Source: Pantoea endophytica
GTDB taxonomy: Bacteria; Pseudomonadota; Gammaproteobacteria; Enterobacterales; Enterobacteriaceae
DNA length: 64,000 nt
Assembly (NCBI RefSeq): GCF_002858935.1
Contig: NZ_PJRT01000009.1
Location: 310,001-374,000, forward strand
Direction: 5' to 3'
The notes below the pieces were generated by a model. It was not told the origin of the DNA, searched no databases, and worked only from the letters and a program-made list of their open reading frames with translations. The position numbers and the translations under genes are program-made. This document shows, one piece after another, positions 52,382 to 63,974 of the stretch (positions are counted from its first letter, which is position 1; each line of letters opens with the position of its first letter).

Positions 52382-53147
52382 GCAATTTTCTCTTACCTGT
52401 TCCCTGTATTAATCAATCACCCAAGTCACAATAGCTAATACCAACGATTAACCACTAAATTTTATCCTCTGATTGGCAAAAACGTCAGTGAAATTGTTGC
52501 CTGCGCAATCAACGTTCCTCTATTAGAGCCAATCACATCAAGCACTTCCGCCAAAAAGGAATCGGTTCCATGATGTTAAATGCACCAGGCGCTGCGTGCA
52601 TGAACACTTAACTGAATGTGATATCGCTCACGCAAAAGCTTTCATGAAGCTTAACTATAATTTTTTATGATGTTCGAACTTGTTCATTGATTACAGAGAC
52701 CAATCTGAAAAATGCGACCAAATCTGTCTGATCCTGCCTGCATTCAGCCTCAATGATGGTAAAGCGATTTACCGCACAATTGGTTTACATCATTCAATAA
52801 ACTATAAACTGGAACTTTCCGTTTAAGGTTTCCAAAACGTTTTGGATAAGCCGTCAGAAAACCTTACTTTATTCATCAATATCAGCACGTTAATCTAACT
52901 TAACTTCAATTTTTTGTCAGAATCACATTTTCCATGCTCGTGTCAGGCTTTTCCTGCTAACGACTGAAGCAAAACCAGGCAAAAAGCAGAACAATTGGTC
53001 AAAAAAGGTGCAATATGGCAAAGAAATTAATTCCTTGCTTGACTGTGTCAGCAAATTAATGTTTTCTGTATTTAATCGCTGCTCAACATCACACAATTTA
53101 ATGAATCTTGTCGCAGGCATTGGCGAATTTGTTAAGGTGATTTGGAA
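52382..53147. other. Gene-free AT-rich stretch where elbB is expected
   Basis: About 770 bases between mtgA and the ArcZ RNA. It is clearly more AT-rich than its neighbours and I find no open frame with recognisable similarity; the one frame over 60 codons (52923-53120, minus) looks random. In E. coli elbB lies here. No repeat, insertion sequence or tRNA was seen. It must hold the mtgA and arcZ promoters. Confidence 0.6.
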
Positions 53148-53267
53148 GCGTTAACCAATACCGAATTGCTGCTTTCTTATTCGATTTCTAATAATAGCAG
53201 CAATGCCCATTTCCCTGGTGTTGGCGCAGTATTCGCGCACCCCAGTTTCGACTGGGGTCATTTTTTT
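53148..53267 (+). ncRNA. arcZ: ArcZ small regulatory RNA (RyhA/SraH)
   Basis: The 3' part from 53209, beginning ATTTCCCTGGTGTTGGC and continuing GCAGTATTCGCGCACCCC, matches from memory the processed, Hfq-bound seed region of E. coli ArcZ. The terminator has stem ACCCCAGT/ACTGGGGT with TTCG loop (53239-53258) and T7. The RNA is opposite arcB, as in E. coli, and its terminator overlaps the arcB stop. ArcZ activates rpoS translation and represses flhDC, and in Erwinia affects virulence. The 5' end is set only by the usual length of about 120 nt. Confidence 0.9.
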
Positions 53268-55612
53268 CTAACGTCCTGTAATTTTTCCCGCTCCGCTACC
53301 CATTCACGTAACACGTTCACGTCTTTCAGCCACTCTTGTTTTAACTCATCGACCCACTCTTGCACGTTGTCCCACCACGCTGGCAATTCCGGCGACTGAA
53401 TCTGCTTCGCCAACTGCTGTATATGCAGTAAGCCAACCGAACCTGCCGCACCTTTGATCTTGTGCCCTTCTTCAGCAATGCCTTTTTGATCGCGCGCCAT
53501 CATGTTGGAATCCAGCACCTCGAGATAGCCCGGCATCATCTGCTCAAACATGGTCAGGCTTTGGGTAATCAATCCAGGGCCAACCAGTTCAATGTATTGC
53601 TCCAGCATCGCCACATCTAGCAGCGTGCGCGACTGCGCGTCTGATGATTCGGTGGCGATCTCTTCCAGCTCCGGCTGATAATCCCAGAACTTCTTGATCA
53701 CCGCCGTAAGCGCTGGCACAGCAAGCGGTTTGCTCAACACATCATCCATGCCGGCATCGAGATACTCTTTTTTGTCTTTCAGCACATTGGCGGTCAATGC
53801 CACCAGCGGCGGCAGCGCCACATCTGCGTGACGCTGATGGATGGCACGTGACACGTCGAGGCCCGTCATATCCGGAAGCTGAATATCGAGCAGCACCAGA
53901 TCGAACTCCTGCGGATCAAACATCGCCAGCGCGTCCGTACCGGTCATCGCGACTTCGACGCTGCAACCCAGCTTCTCCAGTACCGAACGCGCAACAATCA
54001 CGTTGAGTTCAATATCTTCCACCAGTAATACGTGCAGCGCCGGCAACGGCATACTGTCATCCAGATTGTCGTCTTCCACTTCCTCAGCGACGCGTGGCGC
54101 GTTGATCTCCACGGTGAAGCAGGAACCCTGCCCCGCGACGCTACTCACGCTGATATCGCCGCCCATCGCTTGGGCTAAACGACGCGAGACCGCTAAACCG
54201 ATGCCGGTGCCCGTTGCCGGCTTGCCGCCGTGCTGATCTTTCACCTGGTAATACATGGCGAAGATCTTATCCTGCTCTTCCTGCGGAATGCCCATGCCGG
54301 AATCCTGCACTTCAAAGTGCAGCGTTTCATCCTGACGATAGGCAACGCGCACCACAATCTCGCCCTGCTGAGTAAATTTCACGGCATTGCCGATCAGGTT
54401 CCACAGAATCTGACGCAGACGCGTGCCATCCGCCGAAATTTTATGGGGCAGCGGCAGCTCCGGCGCCATGACAAATTTCAGCCCTTTTGGCTGCGCCAGC
54501 AGACCGGAGAGGTTTTCCAGATCGGCGAGGAAACCGGTGAAATCCAGCGGCTGATTATCCAGCTGCACTTTGCGGCGTTCGATTTTGTCCACTTCAATTA
54601 CATCATTGAAGATGTTGCCCAGCGTGATGGCCGACACGTGGATGGTTTTGAGGTACTTCAGCTGCTCCTGATTGAGATCGGTATCCAGCAGGATGCGGCT
54701 CAGTCCGACGATGCCATTCAGCGGCGTACGCAGCTCATGGCTGATAGTCGAAATAAAGGTAGTCTTCTCACGGCTGGCGTTCTCCAGCGCGTCCTGATAG
54801 CGCTTACGCTCGGTAATGTCGCGGCCAAAGCCCATCAGGCCACTGCGTTTTCCGACACGGTCGTAATAGGGCACTTTACGGATTTCGAAACAGGCTTTGC
54901 GCCCGTCGGGATATTGCAGCCACTGTTCGTAGGTTAGCGACACATTGTGGCGGAACACCTTCTCATCGGTTTCCAGCACTTTGGTGGCGGCTTCATCATC
55001 ATAGATATCGCGTGGTGTCAGGCCAATCAGCTGCTTTTCACTCATGCCGGTTAGCAGTTCCATGGCGCGATTACAGCCGGAGAACTGCTTATCAATGTTG
55101 CGGTAGAACACCAAATCCGGTGACGCATCAAGGAAGGAGCGCAGGAAGGAGGATTGCTGTTCCAGCTCAATTTGCGCCTGCTCGCGTCGTGCCATCTCTT
55201 CGCGCAGCTTATCCATCACCTGCTCGCGCGCCTGCTCGGCTTTAATACGGTCGTTAATTTCCTGATTAAGCTGGGTGATGGTCTCTTTCATCTGCTGGTT
55301 CAGCTCGAGATCGCGCGTACGCATCTCTTCCAGCTTATCCACCAGTTTCGACAGGCGCTGGCGCGACTCTTCCAGCTGATCGACCACCACTGAGAGGAAA
55401 TAGACGGCCCAGGGCGTAATCAACAGACCGAAGAAGATGGAGCGGACGACGTCGATGCTCTCCACATGCCCACGCAATACCATGGTGACGGCCATCTGTA
55501 CCACCATCGCCAGCACCACCAGCGCTGAGGCTAACAGCAGCGAAAAGCGTACCAGGCCGAGTTTGACCATCAAATCAACGTAGTACTGCGCTAAAAGACG
55601 AATCTGTTTCAT
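53258..55612 (-). CDS. arcB: Aerobic respiration control hybrid sensor kinase ArcB
   Basis: 784 residues from MKQIRLLAQYYVDLMVKLG (55612); the frame opens ten codons earlier. Two transmembrane helices (about 23-77), a leucine-zipper coiled coil, a PAS domain with both redox-switch cysteines (FSGCNRAME and GRKACFEI, Cys180 and Cys241 equivalents), H-box STISHELRTPLNG, ATPase, receiver with LVLLDIQLPDMTG, and HPt with EEGHKIKGAAGS. It senses quinone redox state and phosphorylates ArcA. Its 3' end overlaps the ArcZ terminator. Confidence 0.97.
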   Translation of the reverse strand: MKQIRLLAQYYVDLMVKLGLVRFSLLLASALVVLAMVVQMAVTMVLRGHVESIDVVRSIFFGLLITPWAVYFLSVVVDQLEESRQRLSKLVDKLEEMRTRDLELNQQMKETITQLNQEINDRIKAEQAREQVMDKLREEMARREQAQIELEQQSSFLRSFLDASPDLVFYRNIDKQFSGCNRAMELLTGMSEKQLIGLTPRDIYDDEAATKVLETDEKVFRHNVSLTYEQWLQYPDGRKACFEIRKVPYYDRVGKRSGLMGFGRDITERKRYQDALENASREKTTFISTISHELRTPLNGIVGLSRILLDTDLNQEQLKYLKTIHVSAITLGNIFNDVIEVDKIERRKVQLDNQPLDFTGFLADLENLSGLLAQPKGLKFVMAPELPLPHKISADGTRLRQILWNLIGNAVKFTQQGEIVVRVAYRQDETLHFEVQDSGMGIPQEEQDKIFAMYYQVKDQHGGKPATGTGIGLAVSRRLAQAMGGDISVSSVAGQGSCFTVEINAPRVAEEVEDDNLDDSMPLPALHVLLVEDIELNVIVARSVLEKLGCSVEVAMTGTDALAMFDPQEFDLVLLDIQLPDMTGLDVSRAIHQRHADVALPPLVALTANVLKDKKEYLDAGMDDVLSKPLAVPALTAVIKKFWDYQPELEEIATESSDAQSRTLLDVAMLEQYIELVGPGLITQSLTMFEQMMPGYLEVLDSNMMARDQKGIAEEGHKIKGAAGSVGLLHIQQLAKQIQSPELPAWWDNVQEWVDELKQEWLKDVNVLREWVAEREKLQDVRKK

Positions 55613-56010
55613 TACGAGCTCCCTGAACGAAATCTGGCTCATGATAGCGTAATTATCGCTGCGCTGCCCCGCTTCACCCGGCCATATCGCGCAGGTTATG
55701 CCCTGTAATGGTGCATCGCAGCGTGATTTCGCCGACGTTCCCTTCTATATGCGCAAAGCGCTTGACTAATTCTGCCAACTGAATAATCTGGAGGGCCGCG
55801 CTTTTGCGAACCTTTCCTCAACATCCGGTGCTAATCAGCACCCTGGCAGCCATTCATCCTGATGGTTGCACCTCTTTATTGCATACCCATTCAATTTAAA
55901 TGACTTTCTACGCATGCTTTGCGTGATTAATTTTACTAATGGCAGCGCCATTTTGATTCAAATATGACGCCATAAGAAAAACAGATACATGCTGTGTATC
56001 AACTGCCCCT

Positions 56011-56029
56011 AACAGCATTAAATGCTGTT
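56011..56029. repeat. Perfect inverted repeat upstream of the gltB-like promoter
   Basis: AACAGCATT and AATGCTGTT are separated by one base. No U-tract follows, so an operator is more likely than a terminator. The binding protein is unknown. Confidence 0.5.
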
Positions 56030-56076
56030 ATAACCCTTTCTGCCAGCATTGTTTGGATATTAGAGGGCTGGGTCAC

Positions 56077-56092
56077 AGTGAGACGGCTCACA
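56077..56092. promoter_or_regulatory. CRP-like binding site
   Basis: AGTGA-GACGGC-TCACA matches nine of ten half-site bases of the CRP consensus TGTGA-N6-TCACA. Its centre is about 35 bases before TTGACA, which would put it near -70 if that is the -35 element, a class I position. E. coli gltBD is known to be influenced by CRP and Lrp. Confidence 0.6.
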
Positions 56093-56337
56093 CTTCCTGG
56101 GGGAATGCGCAGCGGGATATTGACATAAATTTACGCAATAAATTCTTATTAATCATTTAATTAAGTGACAAGAAAGCCTATTACCCGCATCAAAGCTGGC
56201 TATTTGACCTGAGTTCGCTTTCCCGATAAGTTGGAATTCCACTGGAAGCTTTCCTGGTGGGCCTGTGTCTCGGCATATCTATGCAGCAAGAAGCCTCCCT
56301 CTGGATGCAAGCTATCTCCCGAAAGAGACCGGAATAA

Positions 56338-56410
56338 AAAGAGCAGCTCATTAAGGACGTGACAACAGTGTCTTGAGAGCCCTTGCTCGGTGCTGCGACG
56401 CCTGCTCTTT
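56338..56410. other. Candidate structured leader segment of the gltB-like gene
   Basis: AAAGAGCAG (56338-56346) can pair with CTGCTCTTT (56402-56410), closing a 55-base interior that itself has short complementary arms (GCTCA/TGAG, GAGC/GCTC). Read on the minus strand the same stem is followed by TTATT, so an antisense terminator is an alternative reading. Structure was judged by eye only. Confidence 0.35.
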
Positions 56411-56514
56411 ACTGAGCGGCACAAGAATTGATACCGCCGCGCTGGCTTACATTGTCACGCTGCGGTACACGAAATAATGCAGGTAATGTCAAAAGAAGTT
56501 TAAGGAGACTCTCA

Positions 56515-59500
56515 ATGTCCACGCAAAAACCGAATCCCTATGGTTTGTATGACCCATCAGCTGGCAGTGACAGCTGTGGTGTAGGTTTCATTACCCGTAA
56601 GGACGGCGAGCAGACTCATGAGATTCTGCGGATGGCCCATAGCGCGCTGTGCACGGTTCCGCACCGAGGCGGCATGTCTGCCGAAGGCGTGGGCGATGGC
56701 GCGGGTGTGAACGTCGATCTCTCCCTGAACTTCTTCCGCAAGGTCACCGGTCTGGCGCTGGAAGCCGGCCGTTTTGGCGTCGGTAACTTCTTTGTACCAA
56801 AAGACGCAGAGCTGCGTGCAAATGCTGAGCGTCTGGTTGAAGAAACGCTGGCGGCGCATAACTTCCCGGTATTAGTGAAACGCGATATGCCGCTGGACGG
56901 CAGCGTGACGCGCCCGGCCGCCCTGCAATTCCAGCTGCCGATTGTGCAGTGGATTTTTGCCGCGCCGCAGGAAGTGACTGAACAACTCGAATTCGAGCGC
57001 CAGATTTATCGCGCGCTGCTGGATATCGAAGCGCGCGCCTTTACCGAAAGCGAATTCGGCGGCCTCTATCCGCTGTCGCTCTCTTCGCGCACGCAGGTAT
57101 TTAAAGCGCGTCTGAACTCCAACGAAGTGATTCCTTACTTCAAAGATTTGACCGATGCCGATCATCAGGTGCGCGGGCTGTTCTTCCACACCCGTTTCTC
57201 GACCAACACCGATCCGCATACCACCATGGCGCAGCCATTCCGCTTAATGGCGCACAACGGCGAGCTGAACACCGATCGTAAAAACCGCATTGCCGAAGCG
57301 GCACTGATGCTGGCGCGCGGTAAAAAAATCGTGCGTCCAAAAGGTCAGTCCGACAGTTCGCGTCTCGACCAGAGCATCCATAGCCGTTTGATGGAAGATA
57401 ACCTCGATCTGATCAACGCAGTAGTTTCGATGATGCCGCCAGCGTGGGAGAACGATACCTCGCTCTCGAACGAAGTGCGCGCCATGCTCGAGTACTTCTC
57501 TTTATATGAAGAGAAGAACGATGGCCCAGCTGCGCTTATCTTCGGTAACGGTGAAGTGATCGGCGCGCGACTTGACCGCCTCGGTCTGCGTCCGCTGCGT
57601 TCCGTTGAAACCGCGGAGTACATCGGAGCGATGTCTGAAGCGGGCCAGATCGCCTTCCCACCGGAAAGCGTGCTGCGTCGTGGCCGTATCGAAGCGGGCG
57701 GCATGCTCTATTACGATCACAAAGAGAAACGCTCTTACACCACGGTTGAAGCGCTGGAAAAACTGGCCGCTGAAAAAGATTATCTGTCACTCCTGAGCAA
57801 AGCGCGTATCGATCTCGCCGACCTGCCAGAAATTCAGGCAGAGCAGCTCGGCTCGCCGCTGCGTTATCGTGGTGACCTCAAAACCTATCAACGTTTTGTC
57901 GCCTACTACTACAACCAGGAAAGCTTCAAATTCATGATGGATCCGATGCTGCAAACCGGCGCTGAGAAGATCTCAGCCATGGGTTACGGCAACGCCATCA
58001 ACGGCCTGTCTGACCACGAAGGCGGCATGGCGCACTACTTCTCACAACGATTTGCCCAGGTTACCAACCCGCCGCTCGACTCCATTCGTGAAGCGGACGG
58101 CATGACGCTGCGTGTGGCGCTGGGTGCGAAGCCGCATCTCGGCCGCAGCAAAGGTCAGCAAATCATTGTTCCGACGCCAATCCTGACGCACCTCGACATG
58201 CTGCGCCTGCGCGAGCAAACCGTCGCTCCTTATGCGCGTTTCGAGATGCTGTATGAGCCGGTGGTCGGCAAAGATATCGTCAGCCGTGCGGCCAACGCCA
58301 ACGCGCTGGAAAAAGCCATTGATGACTTAGCCCAGCAGGTAGTGGATTTCGCACGCCAGCAAGGCGGCATCGCGGTGATCACCGATCGTCATATCTCTTC
58401 AACTCACGCATCAATCCCGATGCTGCTGATGGTGTCGGCGATCAACCAACGTCTGGTGCAGGAAGGTCTGCGTCTGGATGTTTCGCTGGTGGTCGAAAGT
58501 GGTCAAAGCATCTCTTCACACCATATCGCGGCGACGCTGGGCTTCGGTGCTTCTGCCGTTTACCCACTCGGCGTGCAGATGCGTGCGGAAGAGAAATTCG
58601 GTGAAGGCGAAGAAGGCAATAAAGCCTTTAAACGCTATGCCAAAGCAGCCGAAAAAGCGCTGATGAAAACCATGGGTAAAGTCGGCCTGTGTACCGTTGA
58701 GAGCTACAGCTGCGGCGAGTTCTTCGAGCCGAACTTCCTGAATACCGACGATCCGGTATTGAAAAAGTATTTCCCGAATATCAAAACGCCGGTTGGCGGC
58801 GCGGGCTTCCCGGCGATCGCCCAGATGGCGGTAGACTGGCATCAAAGCGCATTAAAAATTCAGGGCGAAGCGGAAGTGCCGTTGCTCGGCCTGTTCAAAG
58901 AGCGTGCTGAAGGCGCGGGCCACTCATACGGCACCATCGCGGTGCGTACCTTCATTGATATGACGGAACAACCGATTCGCTTTGCTAACAAAGAGCGCGA
59001 AGAGGACAACTTTATTCGTTTGATGACGCTGGCCAAACTGGATAATGCGTTCAACATCAAAGCGGAAGCCTTTAAAGACAGCAGCTTCGAGCGCATCCCA
59101 AATGATGTGATCGACAGCTTTGCCATCACGCCAGATTATCGTCAGTTCTCCAGCCTGATGCATGCCGAGCGTAAACGCCGTCCTGCGGCGCTACGTGACA
59201 TCCTTGCGCTGCCGTGCGATCTGACCCACGTGGACAGCGAAGCCGAATTCGGCCGCAAACTGGGCCGCTACTCGCTGGTGAACAACGGCTTCGCTACGCG
59301 TGGCCTGAAATGTGAAGCAGTGAACGGCAGCCTGAACCAGTTCGAGCTGCGTCTGATCGATGCAATTGCTGGCCTGAAACCAGAAAGCGAGCGCCTGGAA
59401 GCGCTGGCACGGGCACTGAAAACCCGTTTCACCGACGATATCGAAAGCAGCAACGTAGCGGATGGCGTGCTGCACATCACCGCTTACGGCAAAGCAGCCG

Positions 59501-62046
59501 ATTATCTGTCGCTGATCTTCACCGCGCTGCCATCGCTGCCGCTGGAAGAGATTCAGCCAGCCCACGAAATCACGCGTACCTTTGCTTCCGGTGCGATGAG
59601 CCACGGTGCGTTGGTTGCGCCGGCGCACGAAGCTGTCGCGCACGGTACTAACATGGTTGGCGGCATGAGTAACTGTGGTGAAGGTGGCGAGCACTATTCT
59701 CGTCACGGCACCATCCGCGCGTCACGTATCAAGCAGTTGGCATCCGGGCGTTTCGGCGTGTGGGCGGCTTATCTTGCTGATCCAATGCTGGAAGAGCTGG
59801 AGATCAAAATCGGTCAGGGCGCGAAGCCCGGTGAAGGCGGCCAGCTGCCGGCACCAAAAGTGACCGTTGAGATTGCCGCAGCGCGTGGCGGTACGCCGGG
59901 CGTTGAGCTGGTTTCACCGCCGCCGCACCACGACACTTACTCCATCGAGGATTTGGCGCAGCTGATCCACGACTGTAAAGCCGCGCGCGTGCGTGTCATC
60001 GTCAAACTGGTTTCATCTGAAGGTATCGGCACCATCGCCGTCGGCGTGGCGAAAGCCGGCGCGGATGTCATTAACGTCGCAGGTAACACCGGCGGCACCG
60101 GCGCAGCGTCCGTTACCAGCCTGAAATATACCGGCCGCGTCGCGGAAATCGGCATCGCTGAAGTGCATCAGGCGCTGTGTGCCAACGGCCTGCGCGACAA
60201 AGTGCAGCTGCGCTGCTCCGGCGCGCAGCAAACCGGCAGCGATGTGATCAAATCTGCCCTGCTCGGCGGCGATAGCTTCGAGTTCGGCACCACCGCGCTG
60301 ATGATGCTGAAATGCGTGATGGCGAAAAACTGTAACGTCAAATGCCCGGCCGGTTTAACCACCAACGCCGAAGCCTTTGATGGTGATCCGCGTCAGCTGG
60401 CGCAGTACTTCATCAACGTGGCGCAGGAAGTGCGTGAGTTCCTCGCCCGCCTCGGTCTGCGTTCTCTGCGTGAAGCGCGTGGCCGTTCGGATCTGCTGCA
60501 CTTGATGGATCACCCGCTGGAAGTCGGCAAACTGGATCTGCGTGCGATGTTGACCGTGGTGCCAGAGCAGAAAATTGCCAAGCCGGTGTATCTGGAAAAA
60601 GACTTTGAGCTGGATGATGGCTGGGTCAGCGAGCTGAAAACGCAGCTGGTTGGCGCGGCAAGCCGTGAAATCGCGCTGGGCGCGGGCATCACGCTGAACA
60701 ACCGTAACAAAAGCGTCGGTGGTCAGCTGGCGATCGATATCGAACGCATGCTGAACCATGAACTCTCGACAGAGCAGCTGGCTGCATTGCCAGCGGTGCT
60801 GAAAGACGATCGCGGTCGTCACTATCTGGCGCCAGCCACCGTGCTGATTAACACCAGCGGTTCTGCCGGCCAGTCGTTCGGCGCGTTCTGCAACGACGGC
60901 ATGCAGATGAAGCATTACGGCACCTGTAACGACGGTGTCGGCAAAGGCCAGTGCGGCGGCGAGTTGGTGGTGATGTCACCAGGCGGCGGCGCACAGGATA
61001 GCGATGGCAACGTGTTGATCGGTAACTTCGCGCTGTTTGGCGCCACCGGCGGCCGTCTGTTCGTTCAGGGCCAGGCGGGTGACCGCTTCGCCGTGCGTAA
61101 CTCCGGCGCAACCGCGGTAGTGGAAGGCGTTGGTGACTTCTGCTGCGAATACATGACCAACGGCGCCATCCTCAACCTTGGCACCTTTGGTAAAGGCTTT
61201 GGCAACGGCATGAGCGGCGGTTTCGCTTACCAGTACGATCCGTATGGATCGCTGGCAGCCCACGCAGCAGGTGATTCGGTGCTGTTTGGCTCTATCGCCG
61301 ATGAAGATGAAATGGCGCAGGTGCACAAACAAGCGGTGCTGACCATGCTGAACTGGCATCTGGAAGCAACCCAATCGCCACGCGCGGCCTGGCTGCTGGA
61401 TAACTGGGAAACCGAGTGCCACCACTTTGTTTATGTGATGCCGCGTTCACTGCTGCTGTATCAGGATGGCACCGAGATCCTGAAAGCCAAATCACGTAAA
61501 GACCTGCTTGAAGAGCTGTCAACCTCGCTGGCTGCGCATCAGGTTGCGAAGTTCAAATCAGCGTGGCGTGACGGTAAAACCATTGCCAACGGCGCAGTTC
61601 CGGCTTATGGCGCGACCGATACGCTGGAGATGTTTGTTCTGCTGAACAATTACACCGTTCTCAGCCTCGCGCAGCAGCTGGCGCTGGGCAAGCTGCCGAA
61701 AGGCACGGCGGTGGAAGATCCAGCAGTAGAAAAAGCGGTACGTAATCTTCTGATGACCGAAGATTTCACGCTCATCAGCAAGCTGCAACGTCATGCACGC
61801 TCGGCGATTGAGAGTTACAGCGATGACGAGCTGGCAAGCCTGATCGCCGCGAAACGAATGTCAGATTACAAAGCGGCATTAACGCAGCGCAACATTCGCT
61901 CGATGGACAGCCTGGCGACTTACGGCTGGATCATCTATCAGGATGCCTGCAACCGTGAAGTGCTTGGTCATCTACCTGATTTTGAAGAGCTGTTTGCGCG
62001 TGCTGCCTTGCCAGAAATCGCTGCTGCGGTCGGGAAACTTTCCTGA
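56515..62046 (+). CDS. Long divergent glutamate synthase large-subunit-like protein
   Basis: 1843 residues from the ATG at 56515, which has AAGGAGA seven bases upstream; the frame extends 29 codons further without a ribosome site. Layout: N-terminal glutamine amidotransferase with nucleophile Cys21 (DSCGVGF, as in GltB after propeptide removal), a central domain with QRFAQVTNPPLDSIRE, an FMN synthase domain from about 1026 with GAKPGEGGQLP (1102-1112) and PPPHHD (1135-1140), cysteines 1267, 1273 and 1277, and a GXGXG domain ending near 1580. GltB is about 1490 residues. Differences: C-x5-C-x3-C cluster spacing, NTGGTG and SGAQQTG for the usual HDGGTG and DGGLRTG, and a 260-residue tail. It is followed by a CysJ-like gene, not gltD. 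A glutamate-forming role is likely but unproved. Confidence 0.85.
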   Translation: MSTQKPNPYGLYDPSAGSDSCGVGFITRKDGEQTHEILRMAHSALCTVPHRGGMSAEGVGDGAGVNVDLSLNFFRKVTGLALEAGRFGVGNFFVPKDAELRANAERLVEETLAAHNFPVLVKRDMPLDGSVTRPAALQFQLPIVQWIFAAPQEVTEQLEFERQIYRALLDIEARAFTESEFGGLYPLSLSSRTQVFKARLNSNEVIPYFKDLTDADHQVRGLFFHTRFSTNTDPHTTMAQPFRLMAHNGELNTDRKNRIAEAALMLARGKKIVRPKGQSDSSRLDQSIHSRLMEDNLDLINAVVSMMPPAWENDTSLSNEVRAMLEYFSLYEEKNDGPAALIFGNGEVIGARLDRLGLRPLRSVETAEYIGAMSEAGQIAFPPESVLRRGRIEAGGMLYYDHKEKRSYTTVEALEKLAAEKDYLSLLSKARIDLADLPEIQAEQLGSPLRYRGDLKTYQRFVAYYYNQESFKFMMDPMLQTGAEKISAMGYGNAINGLSDHEGGMAHYFSQRFAQVTNPPLDSIREADGMTLRVALGAKPHLGRSKGQQIIVPTPILTHLDMLRLREQTVAPYARFEMLYEPVVGKDIVSRAANANALEKAIDDLAQQVVDFARQQGGIAVITDRHISSTHASIPMLLMVSAINQRLVQEGLRLDVSLVVESGQSISSHHIAATLGFGASAVYPLGVQMRAEEKFGEGEEGNKAFKRYAKAAEKALMKTMGKVGLCTVESYSCGEFFEPNFLNTDDPVLKKYFPNIKTPVGGAGFPAIAQMAVDWHQSALKIQGEAEVPLLGLFKERAEGAGHSYGTIAVRTFIDMTEQPIRFANKEREEDNFIRLMTLAKLDNAFNIKAEAFKDSSFERIPNDVIDSFAITPDYRQFSSLMHAERKRRPAALRDILALPCDLTHVDSEAEFGRKLGRYSLVNNGFATRGLKCEAVNGSLNQFELRLIDAIAGLKPESERLEALARALKTRFTDDIESSNVADGVLHITAYGKAADYLSLIFTALPSLPLEEIQPAHEITRTFASGAMSHGALVAPAHEAVAHGTNMVGGMSNCGEGGEHYSRHGTIRASRIKQLASGRFGVWAAYLADPMLEELEIKIGQGAKPGEGGQLPAPKVTVEIAAARGGTPGVELVSPPPHHDTYSIEDLAQLIHDCKAARVRVIVKLVSSEGIGTIAVGVAKAGADVINVAGNTGGTGAASVTSLKYTGRVAEIGIAEVHQALCANGLRDKVQLRCSGAQQTGSDVIKSALLGGDSFEFGTTALMMLKCVMAKNCNVKCPAGLTTNAEAFDGDPRQLAQYFINVAQEVREFLARLGLRSLREARGRSDLLHLMDHPLEVGKLDLRAMLTVVPEQKIAKPVYLEKDFELDDGWVSELKTQLVGAASREIALGAGITLNNRNKSVGGQLAIDIERMLNHELSTEQLAALPAVLKDDRGRHYLAPATVLINTSGSAGQSFGAFCNDGMQMKHYGTCNDGVGKGQCGGELVVMSPGGGAQDSDGNVLIGNFALFGATGGRLFVQGQAGDRFAVRNSGATAVVEGVGDFCCEYMTNGAILNLGTFGKGFGNGMSGGFAYQYDPYGSLAAHAAGDSVLFGSIADEDEMAQVHKQAVLTMLNWHLEATQSPRAAWLLDNWETECHHFVYVMPRSLLLYQDGTEILKAKSRKDLLEELSTSLAAHQVAKFKSAWRDGKTIANGAVPAYGATDTLEMFVLLNNYTVLSLAQQLALGKLPKGTAVEDPAVEKAVRNLLMTEDFTLISKLQRHARSAIESYSDDELASLIAAKRMSDYKAALTQRNIRSMDSLATYGWIIYQDACNREVLGHLPDFEELFARAALPEIAAAVGKLS

Positions 62047-62088
62047 TTACAGCGCCAATGAACAAGTGTAATTTTGACCTCTCCCTCA

Positions 62089-62137
62089 ATACTTCATGGT
62101 GCAGAAAGGCGGCAAACGCCTCTGCAACCTGAAGTAT
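62089..62137 (+). repeat. Intercistronic palindrome between the gltB-like and cysJ-like genes
   Basis: ATACTTCA pairs with TGAAGTAT, and inside it GGT-GCAGA-GGCG pairs with CGCC-TCTGC-ACC around a GCAAA loop, so nearly all 49 bases fold into one hairpin. Ends of the type CTGCAACCTGAAGTAT recall a family of dispersed extragenic palindromes in enterobacteria. No U-tract follows, so a role in mRNA stability or gene ratio is more likely than full termination. Confidence 0.6.
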
Positions 62138-62175
62138 GACAGGGATAAAATTTTGAACAGGATTGAGCCTTACCG

Positions 62176-63930
62176 ATGAAAATTCCTTACATTCCTGAAG
62201 ATGCACCGTTTAACGGTGAGCAGAAATACTGGCTGGCGGGCTTCCTCGCTGGCCTCCATTCGCGCCTGCTGGTATTAGAAGACAAGCAGAGCGCACCGGC
62301 TGCAGGTGCCAGCACCAATACGCAGCTGCACATCCTGTTCGGTTCACAGACCGGCAACGCTGAAGCGCTGTCGCAAACGGCCGCTAAAGCCGCACGCGCC
62401 AAAGGTTTGGTGCCGGTGGTTCAAGCGCTGGGCGAAGTGGATCTGGATGTGTTCGCTACCATGCGTCACGTGCTGATCGTCACCTCGACCTACGGCGAAG
62501 GCGAAATGCCGGACAACGCCCAGCTGTTCTGGAACGCGATTTCAGCCAGCACCGCGCCGCGTCTGGAGCAGATGCACTTTGCGGTATTGGCGATTGGCGA
62601 CACCGGCTACGACGGTTTCTGCCAGGCAGGTAAATTCATCGATATGCGTCTTGAGCAGCTCGGTGCAAAACGCGTCGCCGATCGTATCGACTGCGATATC
62701 GACTTCGAAGAGCCATCCAGCGCGTGGATTGGTACGGCGATGCCGCAATTCGCCGCCAGTGCAGGCAGCAGCGGTACAGCATTAGAAAGCGCGCCAGAAG
62801 CGCCGGTCATTCCGGGCAGCAATAAGCAAAACCCATATGCGGCTGCGTTGGTGACTAACAAGCGTCTTTCGGCAGAAGAGTCGGCGAAAGATATTCGTCA
62901 CTTCGAGTTTGATCTCACCGACAGCGGTTTGAAATATGAAGCGGGCGATGCGCTGGGTGTGATCCCGGTGAATGACGCAGCACTGGTTTCACTGCTGCTG
63001 ACTCAGCTGAAAGCAGATTACGAAACGCCAGTTCCCAGCTTTGATCGCAACCTCGGCGATCTGCTGACTTATCAGTTCGAAATTTCCGAGCCATCACGCA
63101 AACTGATTGAGTGGGTTGGCCAGCACACCACCAACCAGGAACTGCGTCACGTCCTGCAGCACGACGATAAAGATACCCTTGCCGTTTGGCTGTGGGGCAA
63201 AGACACGCTGGATCTGCTGCAGCTCGAGTTGACGCGAAGCCTGTCGGTGCCGGAATTCGTTGCCATGCTGCGTCCGTTACAGCATCGCGCTTACTCCATC
63301 TCGTCGAGCTCGAAAGCCCACCCAAATCAGGTACATCTGACCATTGCTTCCGTGCGCTATCACAGCAGCGGCCGCGAGCGTAAAGGCGTGTGCTCAACTT
63401 ATCTGGCTGAACGTGTACGTCGCGGCGAAAAGCCGGCGATCTTCATCTCACCAAACAAAGCGTTCCGTGTACCGTCAAACGGCAATGCGCCGCTGATCAT
63501 GGTTGGGCCAGGCACCGGTATCGCACCGTTCCGCGCCTTCCTGCAGGAACGTCAGGCAACGGGCGCAGAAGGTAAAAACTGGTTGTTCTTCGGTGACCAG
63601 CATCAGGCACACGATTACATCTACGAAGAAGAGTTGCAGGCATGGCAGGAGAAAGGTCTGCTGACTAATCTGGATCTGGCCTTCTCGCGCGATCAGGAAG
63701 AGAAGATTTACGTGCAGAACCGCATGCTGGAGAAAGGCGCTGAGCTTTACGCCTGGCTGCAGGATGGCGCTTACTTCTACGTGTGTGGCGACGCATCTCG
63801 CATGGCAAAAGACGTTGATGCGGCGCTGTATGAAGTGGTTCGTCAGTTCGGTGGCTTGTCCAGCGAGCGCGCGGCGGCTTACGTTGATCAGCTGAAGAAA
63901 GATAAACGCTACCTGCGCGACGTCTACTAA
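62176..63930 (+). CDS. CysJ-like NADPH diflavin reductase
   Basis: 584 residues. After a CysJ-like N-terminal segment (GEQKYWLAGFLAGL, about 14-27) comes a flavodoxin FMN domain (FGSQTGNAE, STYGEGEMPDN, GDTGYDGFC), then an FAD domain with RAYS at 371-374 and KGVCSTYL, and an NADPH domain with GPGTGIAPFRAF from 444, FSRDQEEKIYVQ, YVCGDASRMAKDV and terminal RDVY. It is 129 bases downstream of the gltB-like gene on the same strand. cysI and cysH, the usual partners of CysJ, are not adjacent. Inferred role: electron supply from NADPH to the GltB-like protein in place of GltD. A displaced sulfite reductase subunit is the alternative. Confidence 0.85.
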   Translation: MKIPYIPEDAPFNGEQKYWLAGFLAGLHSRLLVLEDKQSAPAAGASTNTQLHILFGSQTGNAEALSQTAAKAARAKGLVPVVQALGEVDLDVFATMRHVLIVTSTYGEGEMPDNAQLFWNAISASTAPRLEQMHFAVLAIGDTGYDGFCQAGKFIDMRLEQLGAKRVADRIDCDIDFEEPSSAWIGTAMPQFAASAGSSGTALESAPEAPVIPGSNKQNPYAAALVTNKRLSAEESAKDIRHFEFDLTDSGLKYEAGDALGVIPVNDAALVSLLLTQLKADYETPVPSFDRNLGDLLTYQFEISEPSRKLIEWVGQHTTNQELRHVLQHDDKDTLAVWLWGKDTLDLLQLELTRSLSVPEFVAMLRPLQHRAYSISSSSKAHPNQVHLTIASVRYHSSGRERKGVCSTYLAERVRRGEKPAIFISPNKAFRVPSNGNAPLIMVGPGTGIAPFRAFLQERQATGAEGKNWLFFGDQHQAHDYIYEEELQAWQEKGLLTNLDLAFSRDQEEKIYVQNRMLEKGAELYAWLQDGAYFYVCGDASRMAKDVDAALYEVVRQFGGLSSERAAAYVDQLKKDKRYLRDVY

Positions 63931-63943
63931 GACGCGCAGGCAT

Positions 63944-63974
63944 AAAAAAAACGGGCCAATCGGCCCGTTTTTTA
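63944..63974. terminator. Bidirectional terminator between the cysJ-like gene and sspB
   Basis: Stem ACGGGCC/GGCCCGT with loop AATC (63951-63968), flanked by A8 and T7. It closes the cysJ-like transcript and, on the minus strand, the sspB transcript. Confidence 0.92.

Follow-up and report, generated by a model that had tools for sequence, protein, structure and literature searches.

A probable glutamate synthase of Pantoea and relatives that seems to lack the iron-sulfur reductase subunit

Glutamate synthase stands at the core of nitrogen assimilation, and its forms are distinguished by their electron donor: GltD, ferredoxin, or the fused eukaryotic form (glutamate synthase section of a 2021 review). 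What, then, feeds electrons to a GltB-like protein that is followed by a diflavin reductase? The question is raised by two adjoining genes in a stretch of 64,000 nucleotides from Pantoea endophytica (contig NZ_PJRT01000009.1, positions 310,001 to 374,000; here called the window), which encode an unusually long GltB-like protein (long GltB) and a CysJ-like reductase. We consider it very probable that both genes specify one enzyme, an NADPH-dependent glutamate synthase in which a CysJ-type diflavin reductase subunit stands in place of GltD. Pantoea and its relatives would seem, from their sequences, to have a glutamate synthase without the textbook iron-sulfur reductase subunit, its donor module apparently swapped for a flavin-only reductase. 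This suggests that a central step of nitrogen assimilation is driven here by a route not yet described; the class of long GltB plus diflavin reductase is absent from the same section of the review, and its novelty is claimed within the open-licence full-text literature searched.

In GltBD, electrons pass from NADPH to FAD and two [4Fe-4S] clusters, all on GltD, and on to a [3Fe-4S] cluster and FMN (2021 review, same section). For the present pair we propose that NADPH would reduce the FAD of the reductase, which would hand electrons to the FMN of its flavodoxin domain; this FMN would donate single electrons to the iron-sulfur (Fe-S) cluster of the long GltB, from which the FMN in the synthase site would be reduced. 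Ammonia freed from glutamine in the amidotransferase domain would join 2-oxoglutarate, and the imine would be reduced to glutamate. To judge from what is known of these families, the flavodoxin-domain FMN would replace the two [4Fe-4S] clusters of GltD. The docking of the reductase to the long GltB, the electron path and the cluster type are predicted from sequence.

The gene pair and its conservation

The large protein of the window contains GATase_2, Glu_syn_central, Glu_synthase and GXGXG domains in GltB order and well above the Pfam cut-offs, so that open reading frame (ORF) and Pfam agree with the 1843-residue protein with amidotransferase, synthase and GXGXG domains described in an initial annotation made from the sequence alone. 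This length follows from an ATG at 56515 behind AAGGAG; the same ORF can be read from a TTG at 56428 (56428-62046, + strand). It barely passes the NCBI GltB equivalog model NF008730 (1057.2 bits, cut-off 1047). In an alignment of 81 long GltB rows, Cys21 is kept in all 78 rows with a letter at that position (3 gaps), GEGGE and QGAKPGEGGQ are present in every row, and HNGE, GGTGA, the nucleophile Cys and the three cluster Cys are invariant apart from gaps. The cluster spacing is C-X5-C-X3-C in all 81 rows, one residue shorter than the canonical C-X5-C-X4-C of E. coli, PDB 7mfm, Azospirillum and Synechocystis. As the standard cluster motif is not matched, the long GltB is a variant rather than a standard member of the family, and its altered spacing would fit an altered entry of electrons.

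Compared with three canonical GltB proteins, the extra residues lie mainly at 820-873, 900-1000 and 1674-1843. The insert at 900-1000 is modelled as an alpha/beta unit, with a predicted local distance difference test (pLDDT) score of at least 87 in nine of its 11 ten-residue blocks and of 70-72 in the other two; no significant match to it was found in the PDB. The C-terminal extension, likewise modelled, has blocks mostly at 76-90 with dips to 54. Either the insert or the extension may serve for docking of the reductase.

The second gene encodes the complete diflavin reductase that the initial annotation had placed next on the same strand, with Flavodoxin_1, FAD_binding_1 and NAD_binding_1 in one chain, all well above the Pfam cut-offs. 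It passes the model PRK06214, 'sulfite reductase subunit alpha' (479.7 bits, cut-off 432), and its best relatives in the PDB by sequence are CysJ and cytochrome P450 reductases. The two genes are separated by 129 bp, and a terminator scan of the window listed no terminator-like site on the + strand between them.

Conservation of the pairing, on which the initial annotation had made its proposal depend, was found throughout. Of 187 stretches matched in a scan of species genomes, 181 encode relatives, from which the 80 best were kept; in all 80 the reductase lies 3' of the long gltB on the same strand, which argues that the pairing is not due to chance. The gap ranges from -4 to 189 bp with starts as chosen by the script, with a 4-bp overlap in seven loci (L063, L069, L072, L087, L088, L092, L097), and the large-subunit frame is short in three (L042, L047, L094). 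Carriers include Pantoea, Erwinia, Mixta, Winslowiella, Lampropedia, Corticibacter, Comamonas, Methylobacillus, several Rhizobiales, Labrenzia- and Cohaesibacter-type metagenome-assembled genomes (MAGs), a Cellvibrionales MAG, Rhodococcus, Pseudoclavibacter and a Verrucomicrobiales MAG. Because the 80 loci were the best matches, an even draw of 398 genomes of the phylum was searched with a model of the C-terminal extension. Six genomes matched, three of them from the genus of the window, and all six have the reductase downstream. Two of the six are divergent, with identities of 57% and 49% in the stretch examined and of 54% and 50% across most of the protein, and these likewise keep the HNGE and cluster motifs and the X5-X3 spacing. 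In a draw of the family, 7 of 246 genomes carry the extension. It was also found in nine plasmid records, with the pair in all five that were examined (L159 by tblastn, the others by annotation). One of these, the K. vulgare plasmid pKvSKV1 (L155), is typed as conjugative and has siderophore receptor and binding-protein genes a few genes downstream of the pair.

The partner reductases form a group of their own. In a tree of 65 rows, in which one linked gene was entered twice (L108, L139) and two of four other rows are very long-branched, 37 rows of GltB-linked reductases fall on one side of a branch (bootstrap 99, Shimodaira-Hasegawa-like approximate likelihood ratio test 97), 17 rows of true CysJ form their own clade (99/99), and seven CysJ-like parts of frames of about 1400 residues form a third (100/99). 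An NADPH-type motif was found by pattern in all 80 partners. Pairwise distances among 34 large subunits and among their partners are correlated (r = 0.96; as high in 0 of 2000 permutations), which is what co-inheritance as a unit would give, contact not being shown thereby.

A glutamate synthase fed by free ferredoxin or flavodoxin, or by a shared NADPH-flavodoxin reductase, the adjacent reductase serving something else, is improbable in the light of these data. Ferredoxin-dependent enzymes do show that a GltB-like protein can act without a bound reductase (2021 review, same section). In Rhodococcus opacus the pair is even followed directly by a free flavodoxin gene (L069:15270-15716), but a free donor accounts poorly for a reductase that adjoins every kept long gltB and has a clade to itself. 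Nor was the insertion of the Synechocystis enzyme, which we take to be its ferredoxin loop, found at the aligned place in the long GltB.

Glutamate synthase genes in the carrier genomes

If the long GltB works with its diflavin partner as a glutamate synthase, is it the only one in the cell? The genome of the window (5.11 Mb in 31 contigs, 100% complete), placed by its closest relatives among the Erwiniaceae as Pantoea-like, has a single full Glu_synthase domain, and hence no second GltB. GltD was not found in it, the best scores being 25.8 bits with TIGR01318 (cut-off 482.95) and 44 bits with TIGR01317 (cut-off 447.7); the normal gltBD pair elsewhere in the genome that the initial annotation had allowed for did not turn up. 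There is one glutamate dehydrogenase-type gene.

In 33 carrier genomes, GltD scores above the TIGR01317 cut-off in 21 and not in 12. The latter are eight Erwiniaceae (G000-G007, G000 being that of the window), Methylobacillus rhizosphaerae, a Cohaesibacter MAG, an incomplete Cellvibrionales MAG and a Verrucomicrobiales MAG; this last has a canonical-size GltB as well, and the other 11 only the long one. As the cut-off is strict (passed by 4 of 14 control genomes), raw scores were relied on instead, and none of the 12 exceeds 44 bits. In the Erwiniaceae searched, each of the eight genomes having one GltB (long) and no GltD, the long pair is the only glutamate synthase found. Ten further genomes, nine shown to carry the extension and one (G299) judged by score, gave GltD above the cut-off in G053, a sub-threshold match of 354.8 bits that may be GltD in G745, and nothing above 44 bits in the other eight, one of which (G129) appears to be the same as G003 from its identical match coordinates. 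Of 295 genomes drawn evenly from the order, 238 have a Glu_syn_central match. Best values are 1e-75 to 1e-76 in the four genomes of the window's genus and 2.6e-92 or better in the others, except G159 (60% complete; 4.0e-59); values of 2.6e-92 or better indicate a canonical-type GltB, genomes with both types not being told apart in this draw.

E. coli has the order mtgA-elbB-arcB-yhcC-gltB-gltD. In all 42 Erwiniaceae-type loci, of which L020 and L067 were assigned by sequence rather than title, arcB points away from the long pair and is found about 0.8-1.2 kb upstream of it. Judged by gene order, the long pair occupies the gltBD slot in the Erwiniaceae searched.

Literature on Pantoea ananatis bears on the function. 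According to PMC12364357 (2025), strain AJ13355 is without close homologues of the E. coli glutamate synthase, its gltB is 64% identical to the Agrobacterium large subunit, and a gltB knockout, there credited to Hara et al. 2012, leads to glutamate auxotrophy. No reductase is named there for this gltB, and the term gltD is missing from its main text. We infer that the knocked-out gene is the long GltB, because in the P. ananatis genome that was searched (G003, L030) the long form is the only one found. Together with the retained catalytic motifs, this reported phenotype supports the glutamate synthase role suggested by the initial annotation. The genus comprises plant-associated and industrial bacteria, and gltB is reportedly needed in it for glutamate.

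The pair might instead be a related amidotransferase-oxidoreductase whose substrate is not 2-oxoglutarate, at least in carriers that have gltBD as well. Of the 21 carriers with GltD, 20 have a match to a canonical-type GltB of at least 477 bits and one has fragments at contig ends, and in G053 (L107:5171-19045) gltB-gltD and the long pair stand side by side on one strand, the pair in the same order as in the window. Against a different substrate stand the unchanged catalytic and FMN-site motifs, the long pair as sole candidate in the Erwiniaceae searched and the reported need of P. ananatis for gltB; we regard this explanation as slightly less probable still than a free donor. It is most improbable that the reductase is just a second, ordinary flavoprotein of sulfite reductase which lies there by chance. 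The name 'sulfite reductase subunit alpha' given in databases and a score of 613 bits with TIGR01931, the cysJ model, speak for it, but this score is below the cut-off of 668.15, the clade is separate, the GltB pairing is conserved, and the genome has a true CysJ (898.5 bits) 5' of a CysI-type gene on the same strand of contig C8. The cysI/cysH locus lacking its own cysJ that the initial annotation had considered was therefore not found; the GltB-linked copy is not an orphan sulfite reductase subunit but a second, different diflavin protein.

Several points weigh against one enzyme made of the long GltB and the diflavin reductase. A strict FMN-binding-loop pattern fits just 52 of the 80 partners, the flavodoxin domain of the window protein being confirmed by Pfam. 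The half-protein model of the long GltB is weak, with a mean pLDDT of 68.2 and values below 50 in parts of the synthase core. The role could differ in the many carriers that also keep canonical gltBD. Finally, the identity of the P. ananatis knockout gene is our deduction, and that knockout may be polar on the reductase gene.

Iron, surroundings and coordinates

Would such a swap have a use? If the cluster stays [3Fe-4S], the iron need would fall from 11 to about 3 atoms per protomer, and canonical gltBD is reported to be repressed under iron limitation in Caulobacter (PMC3751524) and in B. subtilis (as cited in PMC9938188). A wider reading, which we offer tentatively and consider rather doubtful as a whole, is that long GltB with its dedicated diflavin reductase forms a fourth electron-input class that requires about 3 iron atoms in each protomer where GltBD requires 11, a compact cassette moving between phyla; it would be an iron-sparing isoform beside gltBD, accompanied in some lineages by a HemS-like gene and control of the DtxR type, and in Erwiniaceae would have displaced gltBD and become the only, essential enzyme.

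Genes of HemS/ChuX type immediately follow the pair on its 3' side in Azorhizobium, a Hyphomicrobium MAG, Methylopila, Ectorhizobium (weak), Pseudoclavibacter, Tsukamurella and Ketogulonicigenium (homology only), and a more distant one stands 5' of it in a Verrucomicrobiales MAG; in several unrelated lineages such a gene may be a third component of the module. When 87 pair loci were searched with a model built from seven of these HemS-like neighbours, 10 matched, the seeds being counted among them, and none of three canonical-only loci did. Upstream of the pair, four Pseudoclavibacter loci have DtxR-type boxes with 4-5 mismatches of 19 (0-1 of 500 shuffles), as does Tsukamurella with 4 (0 of 500); at the canonical gltB of three Pseudoclavibacter the mismatches number 6-7 (1-2, 16-21 and 23-28 of 300 shuffles). 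On the other side, the Rhodococcus long pair is no different from its canonical gltB in such boxes, alphaproteobacterial boxes are weak at best, no box was found in the three Erwiniaceae loci scanned, and most pair loci are without a HemS-like neighbour. The iron-sparing isoform is a lead, with HemS-like neighbours and DtxR-like boxes in some lineages only.

As the initial annotation had noted, neither gltD nor cysI or cysH adjoins the window pair; 3' of it, on the other strand and mostly beyond the window, follow sspB, sspA, rpsI and rplM (named by eye). At 52382-53257 and 55643-56514 of the window, the two places searched, there is no ORF comparable in size to elbB or yhcC, the arcB flanks of E. 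coli. An ArcZ small RNA match at 53148-53252 scores 63.7 bits, slightly below the Rfam gathering score of 66. Locus L020, from a record titled Enterobacter ludwigii EnVs2, is of Erwiniaceae type and 99% identical to the window protein, and the record is probably mislabelled. Features are collected in Table 1.

Table 1. Positions of the features discussed (window positions unless a locus is named)
Feature	Position	Strand	Basis
Long GltB-like glutamate synthase large subunit, 1843 aa	56515..62046	+	ORF, Pfam
Class II glutamine amidotransferase domain; nucleophile Cys21 (ATG numbering), AHNGELNT motif	56575..57783	+	Pfam PF00310
Glutamate synthase central domain	57892..58728	+	Pfam PF04898
Inserted region, residues 900-1000 (101 aa), absent from three canonical GltB	59212..59514	+	alignment, structure model
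FMN/synthase domain	59485..60459	+	Pfam PF01645
Putative Fe-S cluster motif C1267-X5-C1273-X3-C1277	60313..60345	+	alignment
GXGXG C-terminal beta-helix domain	60796..61311	+	Pfam PF01493
C-terminal extension, helical in model, from about residue 1674, absent from canonical GltB	61534..62043	+	
CysJ-like NADPH diflavin reductase, 584 aa; flavodoxin ~62332-62703, FAD ~62821-63402, NADPH ~63499-63816	62176..63930	+	ORF, Pfam
Terminator-like GC-rich stem-loop and T run after reductase gene	63952..63973	+	read by eye; absent from terminator-scan listing
arcB, divergent neighbour marking the E. coli gltBD slot	53258..55642	-	
HemS/ChuX-domain or homologous genes by the pair	L063:15500-16489, L068:15268-16284, L079:15367-16320, L087:15326-16405, L156:10483-11292, L155:10277-11191, L078:6948-7838		
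DtxR/IdeR-like boxes, distance from long gltB start	L156 (Tsukamurella) about -57; L087, L088, L092, L097 (Pseudoclavibacter) about -143		

Should the two genes indeed form one enzyme, this would account for glutamate production without GltD in these bacteria, the database names 'glutamate synthase-related protein' and 'sulfite reductase subunit alpha' would need correcting, and a two-protein system would be at hand for probing which features of the large subunit select the electron donor.

Comparison with known systems

The pair resembles GltBD of E. coli and Azospirillum (PDB 6s6s, 2vdc) in the domain order and catalytic motifs of the large subunit, the likely donor NADPH and the adjoining reductase gene, and shares the chromosomal slot of the E. 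coli genes. It differs in that the reductase is a diflavin protein instead of the FAD/[4Fe-4S] protein GltD, and the long GltB is 34-38% identical to three canonical GltB proteins and 357 residues longer than that of E. coli. With the ferredoxin-dependent enzyme of Synechocystis (PDB 1ofd) it has in common a large subunit without GltD, the flavodoxin-type FMN domain being analogous to ferredoxin, whereas the long GltB has its own NADPH reductase gene adjoining and no ferredoxin-loop insertion.

The reductase is like CysJ (PDB 6efv, 1ddg) in the domain order flavodoxin, FAD, NADPH, in the NADPH-type motif and in a Tyr at or near the C-terminus, but linked reductases fall in a different clade and have a different neighbour, and that of the window is about 40% identical to E. 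coli CysJ and below the cysJ family cut-off. A CysJ-type module outside the sulfite reductase context is also seen in the ORFs of about 1400 residues, presumably nitrate reductase-type fusions; there, however, it has its own clade and is part of a longer frame, whereas the partner of the long GltB is encoded by a separate gene.

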